A stretch of 33,006 nucleotides of DNA from a virus, in IMG/VR virus record IMGVR_UViG_3300025322_000107, positions 1 to 33,006 of that record. The stretch is one strand, 5' to 3'. The translations under genes and the position numbers were made by a program. Numbering within the stretch: position 1 is the first letter of the stretch; every line of letters begins with the position of its first letter. The notes below the pieces were generated by a model that saw only the letters and a program-made list of their open reading frames with translations, was not told where the DNA came from and did not search any database. Below are positions 9,471-20,488 of the stretch, piece after piece.

Positions 9471-9552
9471 GCCGAAGTGGCGAAATGGTATACGCAGAAG
9501 ACTTAAAATCTTCCGTTGAATAAACATGCGGGTTCGAGTCCCGCCTTCGGCA
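9471..9552 (+). tRNA. tRNA-Leu (anticodon UAA)
   Basis: This 82-base class II tRNA has acceptor arm GCCGAAG/CTTCGGC with discriminator A. The anticodon stem is GAAGA/TCTTC with loop CTTAAAA, giving UAA. There is a variable arm of about 15 bases and T-arm CGGG-TTCGAGT-CCCG. It reads UUA, the dominant leucine codon in this A+T-rich phage, so it probably supports phage translation. Confidence 0.95.
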
Positions 9553-10884: not shown

Positions 10885-13281
10885 ATGGAAGACTTTGTTA
10901 AATATGCTCAATGTGAATCTTGTCCTTTACATGGAAAGCAGAAAGTTATTTCAAAAACATTAAATAAGAATGCTAGATTAATAATTCTAGGTGAAGGTCC
11001 CGGCGGAAGTGATGAAATAATGAAAGATGTATTTTCCGGCAAAGCCGGAATGTATCTTTCTATAGTCATGGAACGCCATGATATTCGTAAGGTAGATGTA
11101 TATAGAACTACAGCATTACTTTGTCGCGGAGATAAAACATTAAAAGAATGGGAATGGCGTCAAGCCGTAGCTTGTTGTCGGCCTAGACTTGCGGCAGAGT
11201 TAGCATTAATTAATACTAAATATGTTGCTGCTCTTGGTCAGCGGGCACTTCAAACTTTAACAGATAAGTCTAAAATATTTGATAATATTGGTACTCCTCT
11301 TAATGGAATAGATACTTTTACTGGATATAAATTTATTGCTTGTTTGAATCCTGCTTTTATTCTACGAACACCGCAATGGGGACCCGTATTTGAAATTCAT
11401 TTTACTAGAGCTTGGGCATTAGCTAATAATAATCTTCCAGAATGGAAATGGCCTAATATTATTTATGAACCTAATGAAGAAATGTTAGGTGCTCTGCATA
11501 AATTAAGGAATAATCAAAATGATAGAATCATCGCGGTTGACGTTGAAACGGCTGATAAAGATTACAAATCAAAGCTTTTGGATATTGGCTTTTCTAACAA
11601 AACGCAAGCTATTTCAGTTCCTTGGTTTGCTCTAGAGAAGAATAGTTTAATACATGAAGCTATAAGAAATGTAACAAAATCGATACTATCGGATATATCA
11701 TTAACAAAAGTACTTCAGAATGGGCAGTTTGATTCGGCTGTATTTGCTTGGAATAATCTTGAATTTTCTGGTACGGATTTTGATACATTATTAGCTCATG
11801 CTGTAGTCGCTCCACGATTAAAGCATTCATTAGATATAATTGGATGTATTGAATTTCATGCACCTAGGTGGAAGATTATCTTTAAGAAAGCTAAAGATGA
11901 TTCTGGTGGTAGCAGATACTTAAACGCAGATCCAATAGAACGAGCTATTTATAATGCTCGAGATTGTTATATAACCCGCCTTCTCTATGATGTTCTATTA
12001 GAACGCTTATACATAACACATAATGGTTTATCTTTATTCGAACAAAGTTTAGCTCTAACTAAAAGTTTAGCTTTACCTATGCGTTTATATGGAGTCCGGG
12101 TTGATGCATCTAAATTTGAATATCATAGAAAACTTCTTTCTGAAAAGAAAGAGCAAATTTTAGGAGAAATGTATAGTTTAGCTATACAGGCTGGATTTCA
12201 AACATTTTCTCCAACTAAAGATGTTCGAAAATTCTTTCAACATCTTGGAATTAAATCTACTAAATTAAGCCAAAAGACTGGGCAAGAATCCTTTGATGCT
12301 AAAGTATTAACTAGTCTTTGCGCTCATCCTAATGAAGTAGCAGCAAAGATGGCTCGTGCTATTTTAGTATTTCGTCGATATGCTAAGCTATTAGCTACAT
12401 ATATAGAAGGCTTAAATATAGATGAATCTGGAAGAATACATCCTACTTGGAATACTCATGGAACTAGAACAGGGCGTTGGTCTTCACAAGAACCAAATGT
12501 GATGAATATTCCTAAGCCTCAATATGGTAGAAATGAAGTTGGTGAAAAGATTATTATAAAATCTGGGCTTAGAGATTTATTTCAAGCATCAGAAGGAAAA
12601 TATTTAGTTTCAGCCGATTATTCGGCTCTAGAAGCTAGGATTATTGCCTTGATTTCTGGAGATAAAATTCTTTGTGATTGGTTTCTACATAATGTAGATG
12701 TTCATATAGAGACGGCTAAGATTTTATTTAAGACTAATAATCCAACATCTCAACAACGAGAATTAGCTAAAAAAGTACGTTACGGGTATCATTATGGCTC
12801 TTCTACTGAAACTGCGTGGCGTTCCTTAATTGTAGATTATCCAACACTACCAATGTCTTTTGTTGGAAGGCTATTTAAGGAATTAAAATCTTTACATCCA
12901 GGCATATCTAGCTATCAAAATCAAACTCTAAGAGATGCTAGAGAAAAAGGATATGTAGAATGTCCAATATCTGGTAGGCGACATCATTTTCATGGGCAAT
13001 TAGATCCTAGTGTTGCATTAAATGTACCTATTCAAGGTAGCGCAGCCGACGTTATAAACCCGGCGGCATTAAGATTAAATATGCGCCTAACTTCTGAAGA
13101 AAAATTCATATTTCAAATCCATGATGATTTAACTCTGGAAGGACCAGATTTTATTTCTTTAGGAAAAAAGTTAAAAGAAGAAATGGAACGTGAAATTCAA
13201 GTTAAAGATGCTAAAATGATATTTCCTGTAGATTTATCTTACGGTAAAAATTGGGGCGAGATGAAACACCTGGAGCTATAA
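10885..13281 (+). CDS. Fused UDG-like / 3'-5' exonuclease / family A DNA polymerase
   Basis: This is a 798-residue replicative polymerase. Residues 1-180 resemble family 4 uracil-DNA glycosylases: CESCPL (Cys10, Cys13), GEGPGG (36-41), and Cys80 and Cys97/98 for a 4Fe-4S cluster. The usual HPA motif reads NPA (155-157). The DEDD exonuclease has DVET (219-222), NGQFD (279-283) and YNARD (356-360). The polymerase has motif A DYSALE (578-583), motif B RELAKKVRYGYHYG (625-638) and motif C HDD (746-748). Tyr633 sits where E. coli Pol I has Phe762 and T7 has Tyr526. Exonuclease and polymerase sites look intact; glycosylase activity is doubtful. SPO1-type phages have a comparable UDG-like polymerase domain. 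Confidence 0.93.
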   Translation: MEDFVKYAQCESCPLHGKQKVISKTLNKNARLIILGEGPGGSDEIMKDVFSGKAGMYLSIVMERHDIRKVDVYRTTALLCRGDKTLKEWEWRQAVACCRPRLAAELALINTKYVAALGQRALQTLTDKSKIFDNIGTPLNGIDTFTGYKFIACLNPAFILRTPQWGPVFEIHFTRAWALANNNLPEWKWPNIIYEPNEEMLGALHKLRNNQNDRIIAVDVETADKDYKSKLLDIGFSNKTQAISVPWFALEKNSLIHEAIRNVTKSILSDISLTKVLQNGQFDSAVFAWNNLEFSGTDFDTLLAHAVVAPRLKHSLDIIGCIEFHAPRWKIIFKKAKDDSGGSRYLNADPIERAIYNARDCYITRLLYDVLLERLYITHNGLSLFEQSLALTKSLALPMRLYGVRVDASKFEYHRKLLSEKKEQILGEMYSLAIQAGFQTFSPTKDVRKFFQHLGIKSTKLSQKTGQESFDAKVLTSLCAHPNEVAAKMARAILVFRRYAKLLATYIEGLNIDESGRIHPTWNTHGTRTGRWSSQEPNVMNIPKPQYGRNEVGEKIIIKSGLRDLFQASEGKYLVSADYSALEARIIALISGDKILCDWFLHNVDVHIETAKILFKTNNPTSQQRELAKKVRYGYHYGSSTETAWRSLIVDYPTLPMSFVGRLFKELKSLHPGISSYQNQTLRDAREKGYVECPISGRRHHFHGQLDPSVALNVPIQGSAADVINPAALRLNMRLTSEEKFIFQIHDDLTLEGPDFISLGKKLKEEMEREIQVKDAKMIFPVDLSYGKNWGEMKHLEL

Positions 13282-14303: not shown

Positions 14304-16049
14304 ATGGCGTCTGTAGAAGCAAAAATAAAATTTTTACAGAAACATTGGCTTAATCCAAAAGGGAAAAAATTTTCTATAGAAGGTCGAGAATGGGTATTAG
14401 ATTATTTTCGTTCCTTAGATGGGTTTAAGCTTTGGCCTGTTAATATAAATAAGGTTTGCCTTCTATGTAGAACTCAATGGGGAGCTATCATAGAAGATGA
14501 AAGTGAATCTAAATCTACTAGGACAGAAAAACATAGACAAGAAAATCAAGGCTGCGAAGGATTATCATCTGAACCAATTTTCTTTACTGTATTCAAGGCA
14601 GATCGTCGAACTGGAAAAACTTTTAATTTCGGTGCATATTGCGGCGCGTCTATGTTTCTTGAAACATGGCAAAATATAGGTTTTGTTTCTACATCTTTTA
14701 TGTCTTCAGAAGATTTAGTTCAGGAAAATTTTCGCGGGCCTATAGAAGCATCTAAAGCTCTGAATGCTAGAGCTACGATGATGAAACGTATTATTACTAT
14801 ACCAAGACAGCGTAGTAAATTACGTTTCTTTGGTACTATTCCGAAAGCCATGACTGGAAAAGGGTTTACATTATTAGGTATAGATGAAGCTCGTGATGTT
14901 GATGCTAAAGTTGCAATAGCTGTTTTACCATCTATTCAAGAATCCGGCGGCATTAGATGTATGCTTTGTGCTTATTTCAAAGCAGAAATACCAAGTCAAA
15001 CTATAGATAAATGCCCTAATTGTGGAGGAAATCTTAGGCATTGGTTTGGTCGAGCTTGTATTATGTCTTCATCTGGTATCATTAAAGAACGTGCAGTTTT
15101 AGATTGGTTTTTTCATCTTAAAAATCGTTTAGCGTCTGAGCCCGATAAAAATGCGCATTTAATTGAAATTGATAATGCTGCAGAAGCAAATCCAGATTTT
15201 AATATAGATGCAAAATCGGCGGCTCGACGTATTTTCTCAACTGTAGAAGGCCTAAAAGAATTAGTAGATATTGAATATAATTCGGAATTTCGACGCATTG
15301 GTGATCAATTTATATCTAAACAGGATATAGATGCCTGTGTCGATTCTGCATTAAATAATGATATTCTTCCTGCTCTAGAACCAACGGTGATGTTTTTAGA
15401 CACATCTCGTATTCAACATCTAACTTCATTAGTTGCTCTTTCATCAGAGTCTTTTGGTAAGAAAAATTTTGAGAAATGTTTTGTATCTCAAATTCATGTT
15501 TGGGATCCTCGAGAAAAAACAATTAGTGGTAAATTAGTTTTACCCTATGGTATAGAACCAAATTCAATCGAAGAAACTGTAGATATAATTTTACCACAAT
15601 ATCCAAATCTCATAGGATTATGGGTAGATTGTAGGAATGCTAAAGCTGTAACTTGGGCTAAGCCTTTTGTTAAAAAGTTAAAGGAAAAGTCTTATGGACA
15701 TTTAGTGCATAGTGTCTTCGAGTCTGAATATGGAAAAAACTTTCGTGACGCAGGATGGGCTGAGATAGAACGCCTTATTATGCATCGTTTAATTCGATAT
15801 CCAAATGTTTTAAGATTGCTTCAAGAATTAAATGGTGCAGTTTGGAAAATGTATAGAGGAAATATGCAAGTACGTGAATCTACAGCATCAAACCATTTAG
15901 ATGTTGCTGAAGGTTTAGCAAGTACAGCTATTTTAGCTTTAATGCATGGTAATAAAAGAATAGGAACTTTCAAACCAAGTGAAAATATTGAATCTAAACT
16001 TAAAGATATAAATGAAAAAGTTAAACAGAAGTTTCGTGGTAGTTTCTAG
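14304..16049 (+). CDS. terL: Terminase large subunit with inserted zinc ribbon
   Basis: This 581-residue packaging motor cuts concatemers and drives DNA into the procapsid. The ATPase has a variant Walker A, KADRRTGKT (98-106), and Walker B LLGIDEAR (190-197). The nuclease has RNase H-fold acids at MFLDTS (Asp366), LWVDCR (Asp442) and HLDVAEGL (Asp533). Between the domains, Cys219, Cys222, Cys237 and Cys240 (CMLC...CPNC) form a zinc-ribbon-like knuckle. A similar cysteine element occurs in GpA-type terminases, and a further CLLC pair lies at 52-55. The gene follows the small HTH gene directly. The assignment is confident; the headful or cos mode cannot be read. Confidence 0.88.
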   Translation: MASVEAKIKFLQKHWLNPKGKKFSIEGREWVLDYFRSLDGFKLWPVNINKVCLLCRTQWGAIIEDESESKSTRTEKHRQENQGCEGLSSEPIFFTVFKADRRTGKTFNFGAYCGASMFLETWQNIGFVSTSFMSSEDLVQENFRGPIEASKALNARATMMKRIITIPRQRSKLRFFGTIPKAMTGKGFTLLGIDEARDVDAKVAIAVLPSIQESGGIRCMLCAYFKAEIPSQTIDKCPNCGGNLRHWFGRACIMSSSGIIKERAVLDWFFHLKNRLASEPDKNAHLIEIDNAAEANPDFNIDAKSAARRIFSTVEGLKELVDIEYNSEFRRIGDQFISKQDIDACVDSALNNDILPALEPTVMFLDTSRIQHLTSLVALSSESFGKKNFEKCFVSQIHVWDPREKTISGKLVLPYGIEPNSIEETVDIILPQYPNLIGLWVDCRNAKAVTWAKPFVKKLKEKSYGHLVHSVFESEYGKNFRDAGWAEIERLIMHRLIRYPNVLRLLQELNGAVWKMYRGNMQVRESTASNHLDVAEGLASTAILALMHGNKRIGTFKPSENIESKLKDINEKVKQKFRGSF

Positions 16050-16203
16050 GGTTATTCTCATTGAGGGTTATCCCGCTATTGACATCCTCGGGGTTAGCCC
16101 CGTATCCTCGAATCGGTCGAATTGGTCGAATCAGTCGATGGTTCATAGTTTTCCTTTCTTGGTTTTAGATGGTATTTCCTTAAAAAAATCCATCATTAAT
16201 TAA
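16050..16203 (+). promoter_or_regulatory. Structured intergenic region after terminase
   Basis: The 154 bases between terminase and the next gene are locally G+C-rich from 16050 to 16140, unlike the surrounding genes. They hold a hairpin CGGGG-TTAG-CCCCG (16089-16102) and three 9-bp tandem repeats of the TCGAATCGG type (16108-16134) with a partial fourth. A second hairpin, GATGG...CCATC with inner ATTT/AAAT, lies at 16168-16194. No U-run follows either stem and the next gene has no ribosome site. The region may regulate the head operon or bind a protein. Confidence 0.5.
16108..16134. repeat. Three 9-bp tandem repeats TCGAAT(C/T)(G/A)G
   Basis: Units at 16108-16116, 16117-16125 and 16126-16134 differ at two positions, followed by a partial TCGATGG. 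The period of 9 is not explained by a coding protein, since the open frame across it has no start signal and unusual composition. It is a possible protein-binding array. Confidence 0.7.
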
Positions 16204-16422
16204 ATGACAGCTAAACGCGATAATGAAATTACTCCTGGAACATTAGCTGCTGTTTTGGAAATAGATCCTAGGACAGCGCAGCGTTGGGCAGAAAATGCTA
16301 TTAATGGTGAAACTTCACCATTGAATAAGTCTAAGGTTAGGCGTTCTATTACTGGACGTTACTATGTAGAACGAGATGAATTAAAGCGTCTCAAAGAGAA
16401 ATTTGGTCTTTATTCGTTCTAA
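16204..16422 (+). CDS. MerR/excisionase-like HTH protein
   Basis: This 72-residue protein has a winged-helix fold of the MerR/excisionase type. TPGTLAAVLEIDPRTAQRWA is the HTH and GRYYVERDELKRLKEKF the strand-wing and closing helix. It sits between terminase and portal, an unusual place for a regulator, so a packaging or head role is possible. There is no Shine-Dalgarno before ATG 16204 and a hairpin ends 9 bases upstream. The composition returns to the A+T-rich phage average inside the gene. Confidence 0.7.
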   Translation: MTAKRDNEITPGTLAAVLEIDPRTAQRWAENAINGETSPLNKSKVRRSITGRYYVERDELKRLKEKFGLYSF

Positions 16423-16442
16423 ATAGTCAATGTCAGGCATTC

Positions 16443-16521
16443 AGAAAACCAGGCTATCGGGCAACCCGACTAGGCAAGTCTTGTCTCGTGATATATCCTA
16501 TCCTCCGTGGGCTGGTTTTCT
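16443..16521 (+). promoter_or_regulatory. Three-stem RNA element over the portal start
   Basis: AGAAAACCAG (16443-16452) pairs perfectly with CTGGTTTTCT (16512-16521), which is codons 2-5 of the portal gene. Inside lie TCGGG-CAA-CCCGA (16457-16469) and a stem from AGGCAAG with CTTGTCT around 16472-16486. Together they make a three-way junction enclosing the GTG start at 16507. No Shine-Dalgarno is present; instead CCTCC precedes the start. The element could control portal translation. Confidence 0.5.
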
Positions 16522-17880
16522 AATTTATTTTCTAGAAAGAAAACTTTAGCAATAGCAGAACCGCAACATAAGCGGTTACGCGCTGGAGTTTCACAAAACA
16601 TTTCTTATTTTGGAAATGTTATAGAATCTCTAGAACATAATTCTGAAGTAAAAGGTTCTAAGTGGTATGGCTCGCCGACACAAATAGGTATTGTTCGGCA
16701 GATGCTCGTCGATCCTTATGTTCGAGCATCATTAAATTATAGAATTAATCCACTTCGGGCTGGATTATGGACTATTGAAGCTCCCACTAATAAACCAGAA
16801 GATATTGAATGCGCTCAATACATTCATTGGAATTTAACAGAACTTTTAGATTTTGATGAAGCTCTTAGAAATACTTGTTTATTTCATCGTGATGGATTTT
16901 CATTACAGGAATTTACTGATTCGGTAGCAACTTATCCGATAGATCGTTTTCCTTTGCATAAAGGCCGAGGAAATGGAATTTTATTTAATGGAATACATCA
17001 TATTCCTGCTTGGACAGTAGATTCTTTTGTATCTAATGCAAATAATGAACGTATTTTAGAATCTTTTTATCAGCATCTAACAAATAGTCCTAATTCGACT
17101 AAAGCTCTTAATGTAAAGAAGAATTTAATATTAAGAGTTACTCAAGAGCAGGAAGGTGCTATCTTTACTGGTTTTCCAACTGCAAGATCTGCTTTTGGTC
17201 CTTGGAAACTTAAAATTAGATATCTAATCATAGACGCAATTAAACATGAACGTTATGGTTTAGGTACTCCTTGGGGTAAATTACCAGAAGATTATTCTGC
17301 ATCTGATAGAGATAATTTTGAGTTAGCGTTAGCTGAACTTAGAATTAACGAGAAAGGGTTTTTAGTAACTCCTTCCGGGTTTGAAGTTAGTTTATTAGAA
17401 ACTAAACAAGATTCTGGAACAGATATAGAACAAGCGATTAACCGACAAAATACGGAGATATTCGTAAATGTTGGAGCACAACATAATTCCTTGGGTTCAG
17501 CAAAGTTTGGATCGTTTGCACTTGCCGATGTCATACACGGTGGATTCGGTATTAGTGTTATTGGCGACGCTAACTTTATTACTGGTAAGTTCAATTTTGG
17601 TGCTGATGGATGGTCTCCGATACGACATTTACAAGTAATGAATTATCCAACGGCTAATTGCCCAAAGCTTAAAGTAAGAAATTTACCAATAAAGAATTAT
17701 GAAGAATCATTAAAAACACTAGCAGTTTTAATTGATAGTGGTGTAGTGCGCCGTGGAGAACATCTTGAATCGGCGGCCCTAGAAAAATTAGGTTTACCAC
17801 TTCCTGAAAATGATACTATTATTGGTGAATTTATAAATGATCTTAATAAGAAAAGTGAGCCTGTAAATGAATCTGAATAA
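16507..17880 (+). CDS. Portal protein (DUF935, Mu gp29-like)
   Basis: This 457-residue portal should form the dodecameric ring at the head vertex through which DNA enters and leaves. The N-terminus MGWFSNLFSRKKT is typical of portal openings. The body matches DUF935-type portals, with DPYVRASLNYRINPLRAGLWTIE near residues 67-90 and GFSLQEF later. It lies between terminase and the protease/scaffold, as in Mu-like head modules. The start codon is GTG with no ribosome site and is embedded in a folded element (16443-16521). No in-frame ATG occurs nearby, so the start is chosen on protein grounds. The end overlaps the protease gene by 14 bases. Confidence 0.85.
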   Translation: MGWFSNLFSRKKTLAIAEPQHKRLRAGVSQNISYFGNVIESLEHNSEVKGSKWYGSPTQIGIVRQMLVDPYVRASLNYRINPLRAGLWTIEAPTNKPEDIECAQYIHWNLTELLDFDEALRNTCLFHRDGFSLQEFTDSVATYPIDRFPLHKGRGNGILFNGIHHIPAWTVDSFVSNANNERILESFYQHLTNSPNSTKALNVKKNLILRVTQEQEGAIFTGFPTARSAFGPWKLKIRYLIIDAIKHERYGLGTPWGKLPEDYSASDRDNFELALAELRINEKGFLVTPSGFEVSLLETKQDSGTDIEQAINRQNTEIFVNVGAQHNSLGSAKFGSFALADVIHGGFGISVIGDANFITGKFNFGADGWSPIRHLQVMNYPTANCPKLKVRNLPIKNYEESLKTLAVLIDSGVVRRGEHLESAALEKLGLPLPENDTIIGEFINDLNKKSEPVNESE

Positions 17881-19144
17881 TACACATTGGGCCTGTGAAT
17901 TTTCTTATCTTGAAACTTTTATAGGAAATCTTCCTAAAGAAATTTCAAGCCAGGCTCTTAATATTCAAGCTTCTGAAGATACAAAATATCAAGTAATTGG
18001 AAATACAGCAATTATTCCAATTAAAGGAATGATCTTAAAAACCATTCCTAAATATTTTAAGTATTATAGCATAGTTGCAACTTCAACTGTTGATACTCAA
18101 AATCTTTTGAAGCTCGCTGTTAATGATCCCAATGTTAAAAATATTACTCTAAACATGGATTCTCCAGGTGGGTCTATTTCCGGGCTTCTAGAACTTGTTT
18201 CTTATATAAAAGAAGTAAATAAGAAGAAGCCTATTGAGACTCATGTAGATGGAATGGCTGCTTCAGCCGCATATTGGATTGCTTCTCAAACTAAAAGTAT
18301 AAAAGCAACTCAATCATCTACTATTGGATCTATTGGTGTTTATACTGTTCTTCATGATTTCTCAAAGATGTATGGTGACATGGGTATAAAAGCCATAATT
18401 ATTCGTTCTGGTGAGCATAAAGGCGTTGGTACACCTGGAGTAGAAATTAGTCTTAATAACATAGATGCTCAACAGGATATTATTAATAATCTCGCAAATC
18501 AATTTATGTCATCGGTTTCTGATGGTAGAAATATTGATATCGAGAAACTTAAGCCTCTAGCGGATGGTCGCTGGTGGTTAGCAAAAGAAGCACAAAATTT
18601 AGGATTAATTGATTCTATTATAAATGCTTCAATTATACAAGAGGATAGTAAAATGGATGAGAACCAGTTTAATGCGCTAATGCAGGCTGTTACTGGTTTG
18701 ACGGCGACCGTCAAAGATGTAGCAGCGCGTGTAGATCAGATTGAGGATTCTTCTAAGAAGAATGAAGCTAAGACTTCTATTCTTGAGCAAGGATTAAAGA
18801 CTACTGTTGAAATGTCTAAGGAAGCTTCGATTAATAAGGCTTTAGCTGAAGGTAAGGCTTTTGCTGGAAATATTGAAGCTCTTAAGATGTTTGCTTCTAA
18901 GTCTTCGTTAGAGGAGTTAGATACTTTTATTGCAACCTTACCTAAGGTAACTAAGGAAATACTTGTGGCTGATATTCCAGAAGATAGGCGCCAGATTGAG
19001 AATGCTGGAGATAAGGAATTTTCTAGTAAGTTTCGTATCTCGATGAAGGATATTGCTTCGGCTGCTGAGATCATTACTATTTCAGCTGATGGCATGGCCA
19101 CTTTAGCTGATGGTACAGTTAAGAAACTATCGGAGGTAATCTAA
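17867..19144 (+). CDS. S49-family capsid protease with C-terminal scaffold
   Basis: This 425-residue fusion has protease residues of about 40-255 that match SppA/ClpP-like phage proteases. DSPGG (98-102) is the oxyanion-type loop, Ser133 lies in GMAASAAYW, and Lys185 lies in SGEHKGVG as the catalytic dyad. From about residue 263 the sequence becomes helical, charged and coiled-coil-like, as expected for a scaffold that the protease later removes. An internal start at 18653 would give the scaffold alone. This protease-scaffold arrangement is well known from lambda-like C/Nu3 modules. The gene overlaps the portal end by 14 bases. Confidence 0.87.
   Translation: MNLNNTHWACEFSYLETFIGNLPKEISSQALNIQASEDTKYQVIGNTAIIPIKGMILKTIPKYFKYYSIVATSTVDTQNLLKLAVNDPNVKNITLNMDSPGGSISGLLELVSYIKEVNKKKPIETHVDGMAASAAYWIASQTKSIKATQSSTIGSIGVYTVLHDFSKMYGDMGIKAIIIRSGEHKGVGTPGVEISLNNIDAQQDIINNLANQFMSSVSDGRNIDIEKLKPLADGRWWLAKEAQNLGLIDSIINASIIQEDSKMDENQFNALMQAVTGLTATVKDVAARVDQIEDSSKKNEAKTSILEQGLKTTVEMSKEASINKALAEGKAFAGNIEALKMFASKSSLEELDTFIATLPKVTKEILVADIPEDRRQIENAGDKEFSSKFRISMKDIASAAEIITISADGMATLADGTVKKLSEVI
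18653..19144 (+). CDS. Nested scaffold protein (internal start)
   Basis: An in-frame ATG at 18653 within the protease gene is preceded by AAGAGGATAG, a good ribosome site at proper spacing. It falls exactly where the protease domain ends. It would yield a 163-residue helical protein with long coiled-coil stretches (KDVAARVDQIEDSSKKNEA), typical of capsid scaffolds such as lambda Nu3, which is also made from a nested start. Codon use becomes more G/C-ending after this point. Expression from this start is inferred. Confidence 0.6.
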   Translation: MDENQFNALMQAVTGLTATVKDVAARVDQIEDSSKKNEAKTSILEQGLKTTVEMSKEASINKALAEGKAFAGNIEALKMFASKSSLEELDTFIATLPKVTKEILVADIPEDRRQIENAGDKEFSSKFRISMKDIASAAEIITISADGMATLADGTVKKLSEVI

Positions 19145-19567: not shown

Positions 19568-20488
19568 ATGACTACTTTATATACTCCCTCGGTGCTAGCG
19601 CGCGGCATTCGAGGTACGTTTTTTAGAGCATTATCTGGCGCGGAGCGTTCTTCGTTAGTTCCACTAATTGCAGATACTATTCCGTCTGATGGTGCTGATG
19701 AAAAGTATGCTTGGATTGGTGAATCTCCTCAGATGGAGGAATTAGTTGATGAAGTGGCTTATAAGCCTCTCTCGGATACTACTTACACAATCACCAATAA
19801 AATCTTTAAGGCTGGCCTAGCGGTTAGACGTAAAGATCTTGATGATCAGCAATATACTGGAATTACACGACGCATTCAACAGCTTGCTTCTGTGGCCGTT
19901 GGTCATAAGAATAAGATGTTGATTAATGCTCTTGTAAACGGAACCTCAGCAACATTAGGTCTTTGCTATGATGGCGGAGCATTGTTTGCCAATGCTCATG
20001 CTGATCGTGGTGTCGCCGGTGTTGGTACTCAAGACAATTTGTTAGCGGGTAGTGGTACAACTACTGCTAATCTTCAAACTGATATCAATACTGGTATTCA
20101 AACTCTACTTTCCTTTAAGGCAGAGAATGGAGAGCCATTTATTGAGACCCTTTCTAACATTAAGATTGTTGCGCATCCGTCGTTGCGTAAGTCTTTGTTA
20201 GAAGCTCTCAATTCACAGTTAATTTCTAACACATCTAATGTCGGGTTTGCTGGATTAAATATTCAACCTGTTTTCAGTGCCAGACTTACTGATCTTGATG
20301 ATTGGTATATGTTAAATATGGACTCGGGAATGGCAAGTTTGCTACTTCAGGATAGAGATCCTCTTGAATTTTCATCGTTAGAAGAAGGTTATGCTGCGAT
20401 GAATCGAGAGCAGTTTCTATATGAAGCTCGCTGGCGCGGAAATGTTGGATATCAATTCTGGCAGTCTGCACTCAAGTTTGTTATTTAA
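19568..20488 (+). CDS. Major capsid protein (Mu gpT-like)
   Basis: This 306-residue protein matches the Mu-like gpT major head subunit family, which has the HK97 fold. The start MTTLYTPSVLARGIRGTFFRAL, the WIGESPQMEEL segment and KAGLAVRRKDLDDQQ (the E-loop/spine region) are typical, as is the C-terminal REQFLYEARWRGNVGYQFWQ. It has a strong GGGAGAAAGGA ribosome site and G/C-richer codons, fitting high expression. A long hairpin follows its stop codon. There is no sign of an N-terminal scaffold region, which is supplied by the upstream gene. Confidence 0.9.
   Translation: MTTLYTPSVLARGIRGTFFRALSGAERSSLVPLIADTIPSDGADEKYAWIGESPQMEELVDEVAYKPLSDTTYTITNKIFKAGLAVRRKDLDDQQYTGITRRIQQLASVAVGHKNKMLINALVNGTSATLGLCYDGGALFANAHADRGVAGVGTQDNLLAGSGTTTANLQTDINTGIQTLLSFKAENGEPFIETLSNIKIVAHPSLRKSLLEALNSQLISNTSNVGFAGLNIQPVFSARLTDLDDWYMLNMDSGMASLLLQDRDPLEFSSLEEGYAAMNREQFLYEARWRGNVGYQFWQSALKFVI

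Follow-up and report, generated by a model that had tools for sequence, protein, structure and literature searches.

Most portal genes in a clade of Mu-type head gene clusters start without a Shine-Dalgarno sequence

Background

The portal of tailed phages is present at 12 copies per head. It is needed in small amounts, and how phages keep it low is seldom addressed. Two described systems come closest to the locus considered here: the late genes of phage lambda, where translation initiation reportedly determines how much of each head protein is made (Sampson et al. 1988, as cited in PMC5712128), and head genes 2 and 16 of phage SPP1, which lack an RBS and for which a role of this lack in setting protein ratios has been proposed (PMC6316719). 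The likeness to lambda, as the citing article presents that phage, is that differing amounts of head proteins are attributed to differing initiation on shared messages; the likeness to SPP1 is that essential head genes are without an RBS (PMC6316719). There are also differences: what was shown experimentally in lambda (on the account in the citing article) is inferred from sequence for the present phage, and in SPP1 the start codon touches the upstream stop codon and coupling was proposed (PMC6316719), whereas here a gap of 46-115 nt intervenes and the gene in question encodes the portal. If, within a clade, it is mainly the portal start that lacks a Shine-Dalgarno sequence (SD) while adjoining head genes have one, this would offer a simple and testable form of dose control at initiation.

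Organization of the head gene locus

The analysed DNA, hereafter the window, comes from an uncultured phage (IMG/VR virus record, 33,006 bases) and carries a block of head genes for terminase, a helix-turn-helix (HTH) protein, portal, protease, a decoration-like protein and capsid. The large terminase gene (14304-16049) is followed by a gene for a 72-aa winged-HTH, BldC-like protein (16204-16422, plus strand, as are all features marked + below), which lies just upstream of a non-coding gap of 84 nt (16423-16506, +) that reaches from the HTH stop to the portal start. The portal gene (16507-17880, +) is of the Mu gp29 type (Pfam PF06074 Portal_Mu, 85 bits; PHROG 113), begins with GTG without an SD, and encodes the N-terminus MGWFSNLFSRKK. 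Its stop is overlapped by the start of the S49 head protease gene (17867-19144, +), which served as the comparison gene for SD strength; the decoration-like protein gene lies between the protease gene and that of a gpT-type capsid (19568-20488).

Searches among isolated phages found no nucleotide relatives of the window and none by terminase protein. Alignment-guided searches gave a set of relatives (L022-L024, L099-L107, L110, L119 and L120); their portals share 30-39% identity with that of the window, and those whose contigs reach far enough keep the order terminase, (HTH), portal, S49 protease. L022, L023, L103, L104, L106, L107, L110 and L119 all have the HTH gene between terminase and portal. 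In each of the 13 loci compared, a non-coding gap of 46-115 nt precedes the portal gene and the protease start overlaps its stop. In two relatives (L024, 3817-6288; L110, 4386-6749), the S49 protease ORF runs in frame into an apparent decoration protein, the two being separate genes in the window.

Translation initiation at the portal gene

The GTG at 16507-16509 is the sole ATG, GTG or TTG in the portal frame upstream of position 16702, and the next in-frame start, ATG 16702, falls beyond residues that align with the relatives; GTG 16507 is therefore the only canonical candidate. A check of the 20 nt upstream for anti-SD complementarity found no SD, which would place it among non-SD starts: its duplex energy with the anti-SD is about +0.5, whereas the protease, decoration and capsid genes reach -4 to -11. 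Directly 5' of the GTG stands CCTCC (16502-16506, +), the opposite of an SD. An earlier note on this DNA had described a GTG start without an SD, preceded by CCTCC, and both observations are borne out by reading the sequence.

The missing SD is a real trait common to most portals of the clade. The comparison comprised 13 loci; L106 and L107, whose start codons are uncertain, were omitted, as was L023, a near-duplicate of L022. The 13 are not fully independent, L105, L110 and L119, for example, being about 62% identical to one another. Portal starts were without an SD (weaker than -4) at 11 of the 13 loci and protease starts at one of the 13, with median SD energies of -0.9 and -7.9 kcal/mol, respectively (Wilcoxon p 0.0004, 13 loci). 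This contrast was stable over four anti-SD sequences and four search intervals. The SD at decoration and capsid genes resembles that of the protease. Against a weaker portal start, opening energies are alike at portal and protease starts, and L099 and L105 are exceptions with a portal SD. Of the distant Mu-type portals outside the clade, most show a strong candidate SD; in that comparison several start codons were considered and the best was taken, which favours detection. The assigned portal starts are credible because the N-termini match from the assigned ATG, being homologous from there on in L102, L103 and L024 and similar in L110 and L119; the portal start in L104 is uncertain, yet is counted among the 13 loci.

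Two relatives have unusual sequences at this junction. In L104 (690-745), the portal frame lacks an ATG ahead of the conserved region and offers just a GTG with no SD there; an A_AAA_AAG heptamer occurs in an overlapping phase right after the HTH stop. In L106 (2898-2925), the sequence after a good SD reads GTG ATG CGG TAG, which is in the wrong phase and lies just 5' of the conserved portal region.

RNA structure of the portal leader

The earlier note had proposed that the portal start is built weak by RNA. The weak start has gained support from the absence of an SD in distant relatives; the part assigned to RNA has not fared as well, the fold being ordinary and not shared. The pairing itself is confirmed by reading, as the note had it: a perfect 10-bp stem joins a 5' arm (16443-16452, +) to its inverted repeat (16512-16521, +), which extends from the final base of codon 2 to the end of codon 5 of the portal, and an inner hairpin, TCGGG-CAA-CCCGA, lies at 16457-16469 (+). 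The minimum-energy fold of 16430-16549 has -30.8 kcal/mol (z -2.3; 4 of 200 shuffles equally good) and pairs the start codon GTG, the G+C of the 40 nt upstream of the start is 0.47 versus 0.36 for the window, and at the portal position alone P is about 0.02 for a 10-bp stem that reaches the first codons. All of this would suit a functional structure, translation-limiting or switching, formed by the stem (16443-16521) and specific to the species of the window phage. A P of about 0.02 is nevertheless unremarkable, because picking one of 34 gene starts gives roughly that, and a predicted fold that looks striking at a single gene start can prove ordinary against other starts of the same genome. 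By fold z the portal start comes ninth among the window's 34 gene starts (z about -1.7 when measured this way), and the pairing of its -15 to +15 region is about average among them. The window contains 10 perfect stems that are 10 bp or longer and have arms at most 100 nt apart, versus 5.1 +/- 2.5 in shuffles, which is not clearly above chance; by rank and by stem count, the fold is no more stable than expected for the genome. An Rfam scan of the window and of the leader returned nothing relevant.

Comparison with relatives points the same way. A stem of at least 8 bp into the first portal codons is missing in 11 of 12 relatives (portals 30-39% identical); the only one with a comparably long stem into these codons is L100, where it has 9 bp and an unrelated sequence. 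The portal gaps could not be aligned in a multiple alignment, and the folds of the relatives also differ. Relatives without the pairing were what the earlier note itself had named as speaking against its proposal, and such relatives, albeit distant ones, are what was found. Contigs from other metagenome samples are essentially identical to the window, and the leader is unchanged in the two that cover it, so that these near copies offer no covariation. The fold at the portal leader is, on present evidence, ordinary. The predicted stem is not the clade's common mechanism, but it may lower initiation further in the window phage; that it is a dedicated, species-specific structure is unlikely.

The BldC-like protein and upstream DNA

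BldC is the best profile match of the 72-aa HTH protein (E 1.4e-4), and small terminase domains are weak profile matches. The predicted structure (pLDDT 87) has a winged-helix fold of the BldC type, with BldC-DNA complexes as the best PDB matches (TM by target 0.77-0.83, although the Foldseek E is no better than about 0.01-0.03); its NCBIfam BldC score is 21 bits versus a cut-off of 77, which leaves it outside the curated family. About 65 bases 5' of the HTH gene are 9-bp direct repeats, TCGAATCGG TCGAATTGG TCGAATCAG TCGA (16108-16138, +), which read as BldC-like (GATTCGACC AATTCGACC) on the minus strand and are the sole lag-9 repeat of such strength in the window. They begin where the -10 element of a promoter-like sequence ends (TTGACA-18-TATCCT, 10 of 12; 16079-16108, +), a class of sequence that is not above shuffled expectation in the window. 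The published BldC consensus is AATTxxxx(C) (PMC5859096), and it is matched exactly by AATTAGACC AATTGGACC between the HTH and portal genes of L103 (2872-2907). Looser versions of the repeats can be made out by eye in L022 and L106, where they are not significant at lag 9, and no such repeats were found in L100, L101, L110, L119 and L120.

The phage protein thus resembles BldC of Streptomyces (PMC5859096) in size, in predicted fold, in the arginine before the conserved tryptophan, and in the 9-bp direct repeats near its gene; it differs in being phage-encoded, in its low family score, and in that the repeats are clear at two junctions only. It is plausible that the 72-aa protein acts as an operon regulator, adding a second, transcriptional layer of control through the predicted 9-bp sites.

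Explanations for the portal start

The explanation that we consider probable is that weak, SD-independent initiation at the GTG holds the portal scarce, with transcription from near 16115 under the BldC-like protein. Ribosomes would initiate poorly at the SD-less GTG, so that the shared message would yield little portal compared with protease, decoration and capsid protein; for the HTH and portal genes, transcription would begin near 16115 and be controlled by the 72-aa protein on the 9-bp repeats. The weak start is supported because the absence of an SD is common to distant relatives, and not because of the RNA fold. A more elaborate, two-layer setting of portal dose, in which BldC-like oligomers on the 9-bp repeats control the operon and an SD-less start, sometimes aided by RNA, throttles translation, is a possibility of rather low probability.

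Alternatively, an SD might be unnecessary, if the message for the portal started in the gap and were leaderless or very short. The gap is present in 13 of 13 loci and is frequently more A+T-rich than its locus, and in the window a TATCCT lies 4-9 nt 5' of the GTG; yet the gaps have no more sigma-70-like promoters than shuffles do, the spacing from promoter to start is inconsistent, and GTG, with which the window portal begins, is usually a poor start codon without a leader, which together make this route quite improbable. We give an equally small chance to the gap being mainly a DNA element, a site for the HTH protein or for the packaging enzyme, to which the RNA features would be incidental: the repeats adjoin the HTH gene in the window, lie within the gap in L103 and recur loosely in L022 and L106, and the weak matches to small terminase domains would fit a packaging role, but the window repeats precede the HTH gene rather than lying in the portal gap, and five relatives have no such repeats.

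The earlier note had also raised the idea that the portal frame is fed by a -1 shift from an overlapping 39-codon ORF (16430-16549, +). The ORF exists, as does the A_AAA_C in its frame near 16541; it is out of phase with the portal, it has no SD, its codon score falls between those of genes and of wrong frames, and it is probably not a gene. In favour of ribosomes reaching the portal frame by this shift, the portal phase is -1 relative to that of the ORF, as required, ATG 16430 is only 7 nt past the HTH stop, L022 and L023 each have a short overlapping ORF that has an A-run and shares this relative phase, and L104 has a possible frame in the same phase, but without a canonical start. There is, however, no open frame in the required phase in L100, L101, L103, L024 and L105, and L110 has its overlapping frame in the other phase. 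As a slip site A_AAA_C is minimal, and AAAAC occurs 52 times in the window; the sole nearby hairpin includes the slip site; there is no downstream stimulator; and the plausible portal N-terminus would be lost. The three marks of a programmed -1 frameshift, a conserved zero-frame ORF, a slippery heptamer and a stimulator, are lacking. Frameshift entry into the portal was rejected as extremely improbable, given the lack of a common phase among the 13 loci, the commonness of AAAAC, the missing stimulator and the discarded N-terminus.

Other features of the window

The first 600 bases of the window have a G+C above that of most of it (0.43 over the first 1,000 bases), and there is no convincing gene upstream of position 650. 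ARAGORN found two tRNA genes, for Ile (TAT; 2601-2673) and Leu (TAA; 9471-9552), and nothing else in the window; both are away from the portal leader. A single protein encoded at 10885-13281 combines DNA polymerase A with an N-terminal uracil-DNA-glycosylase domain (Pfam).
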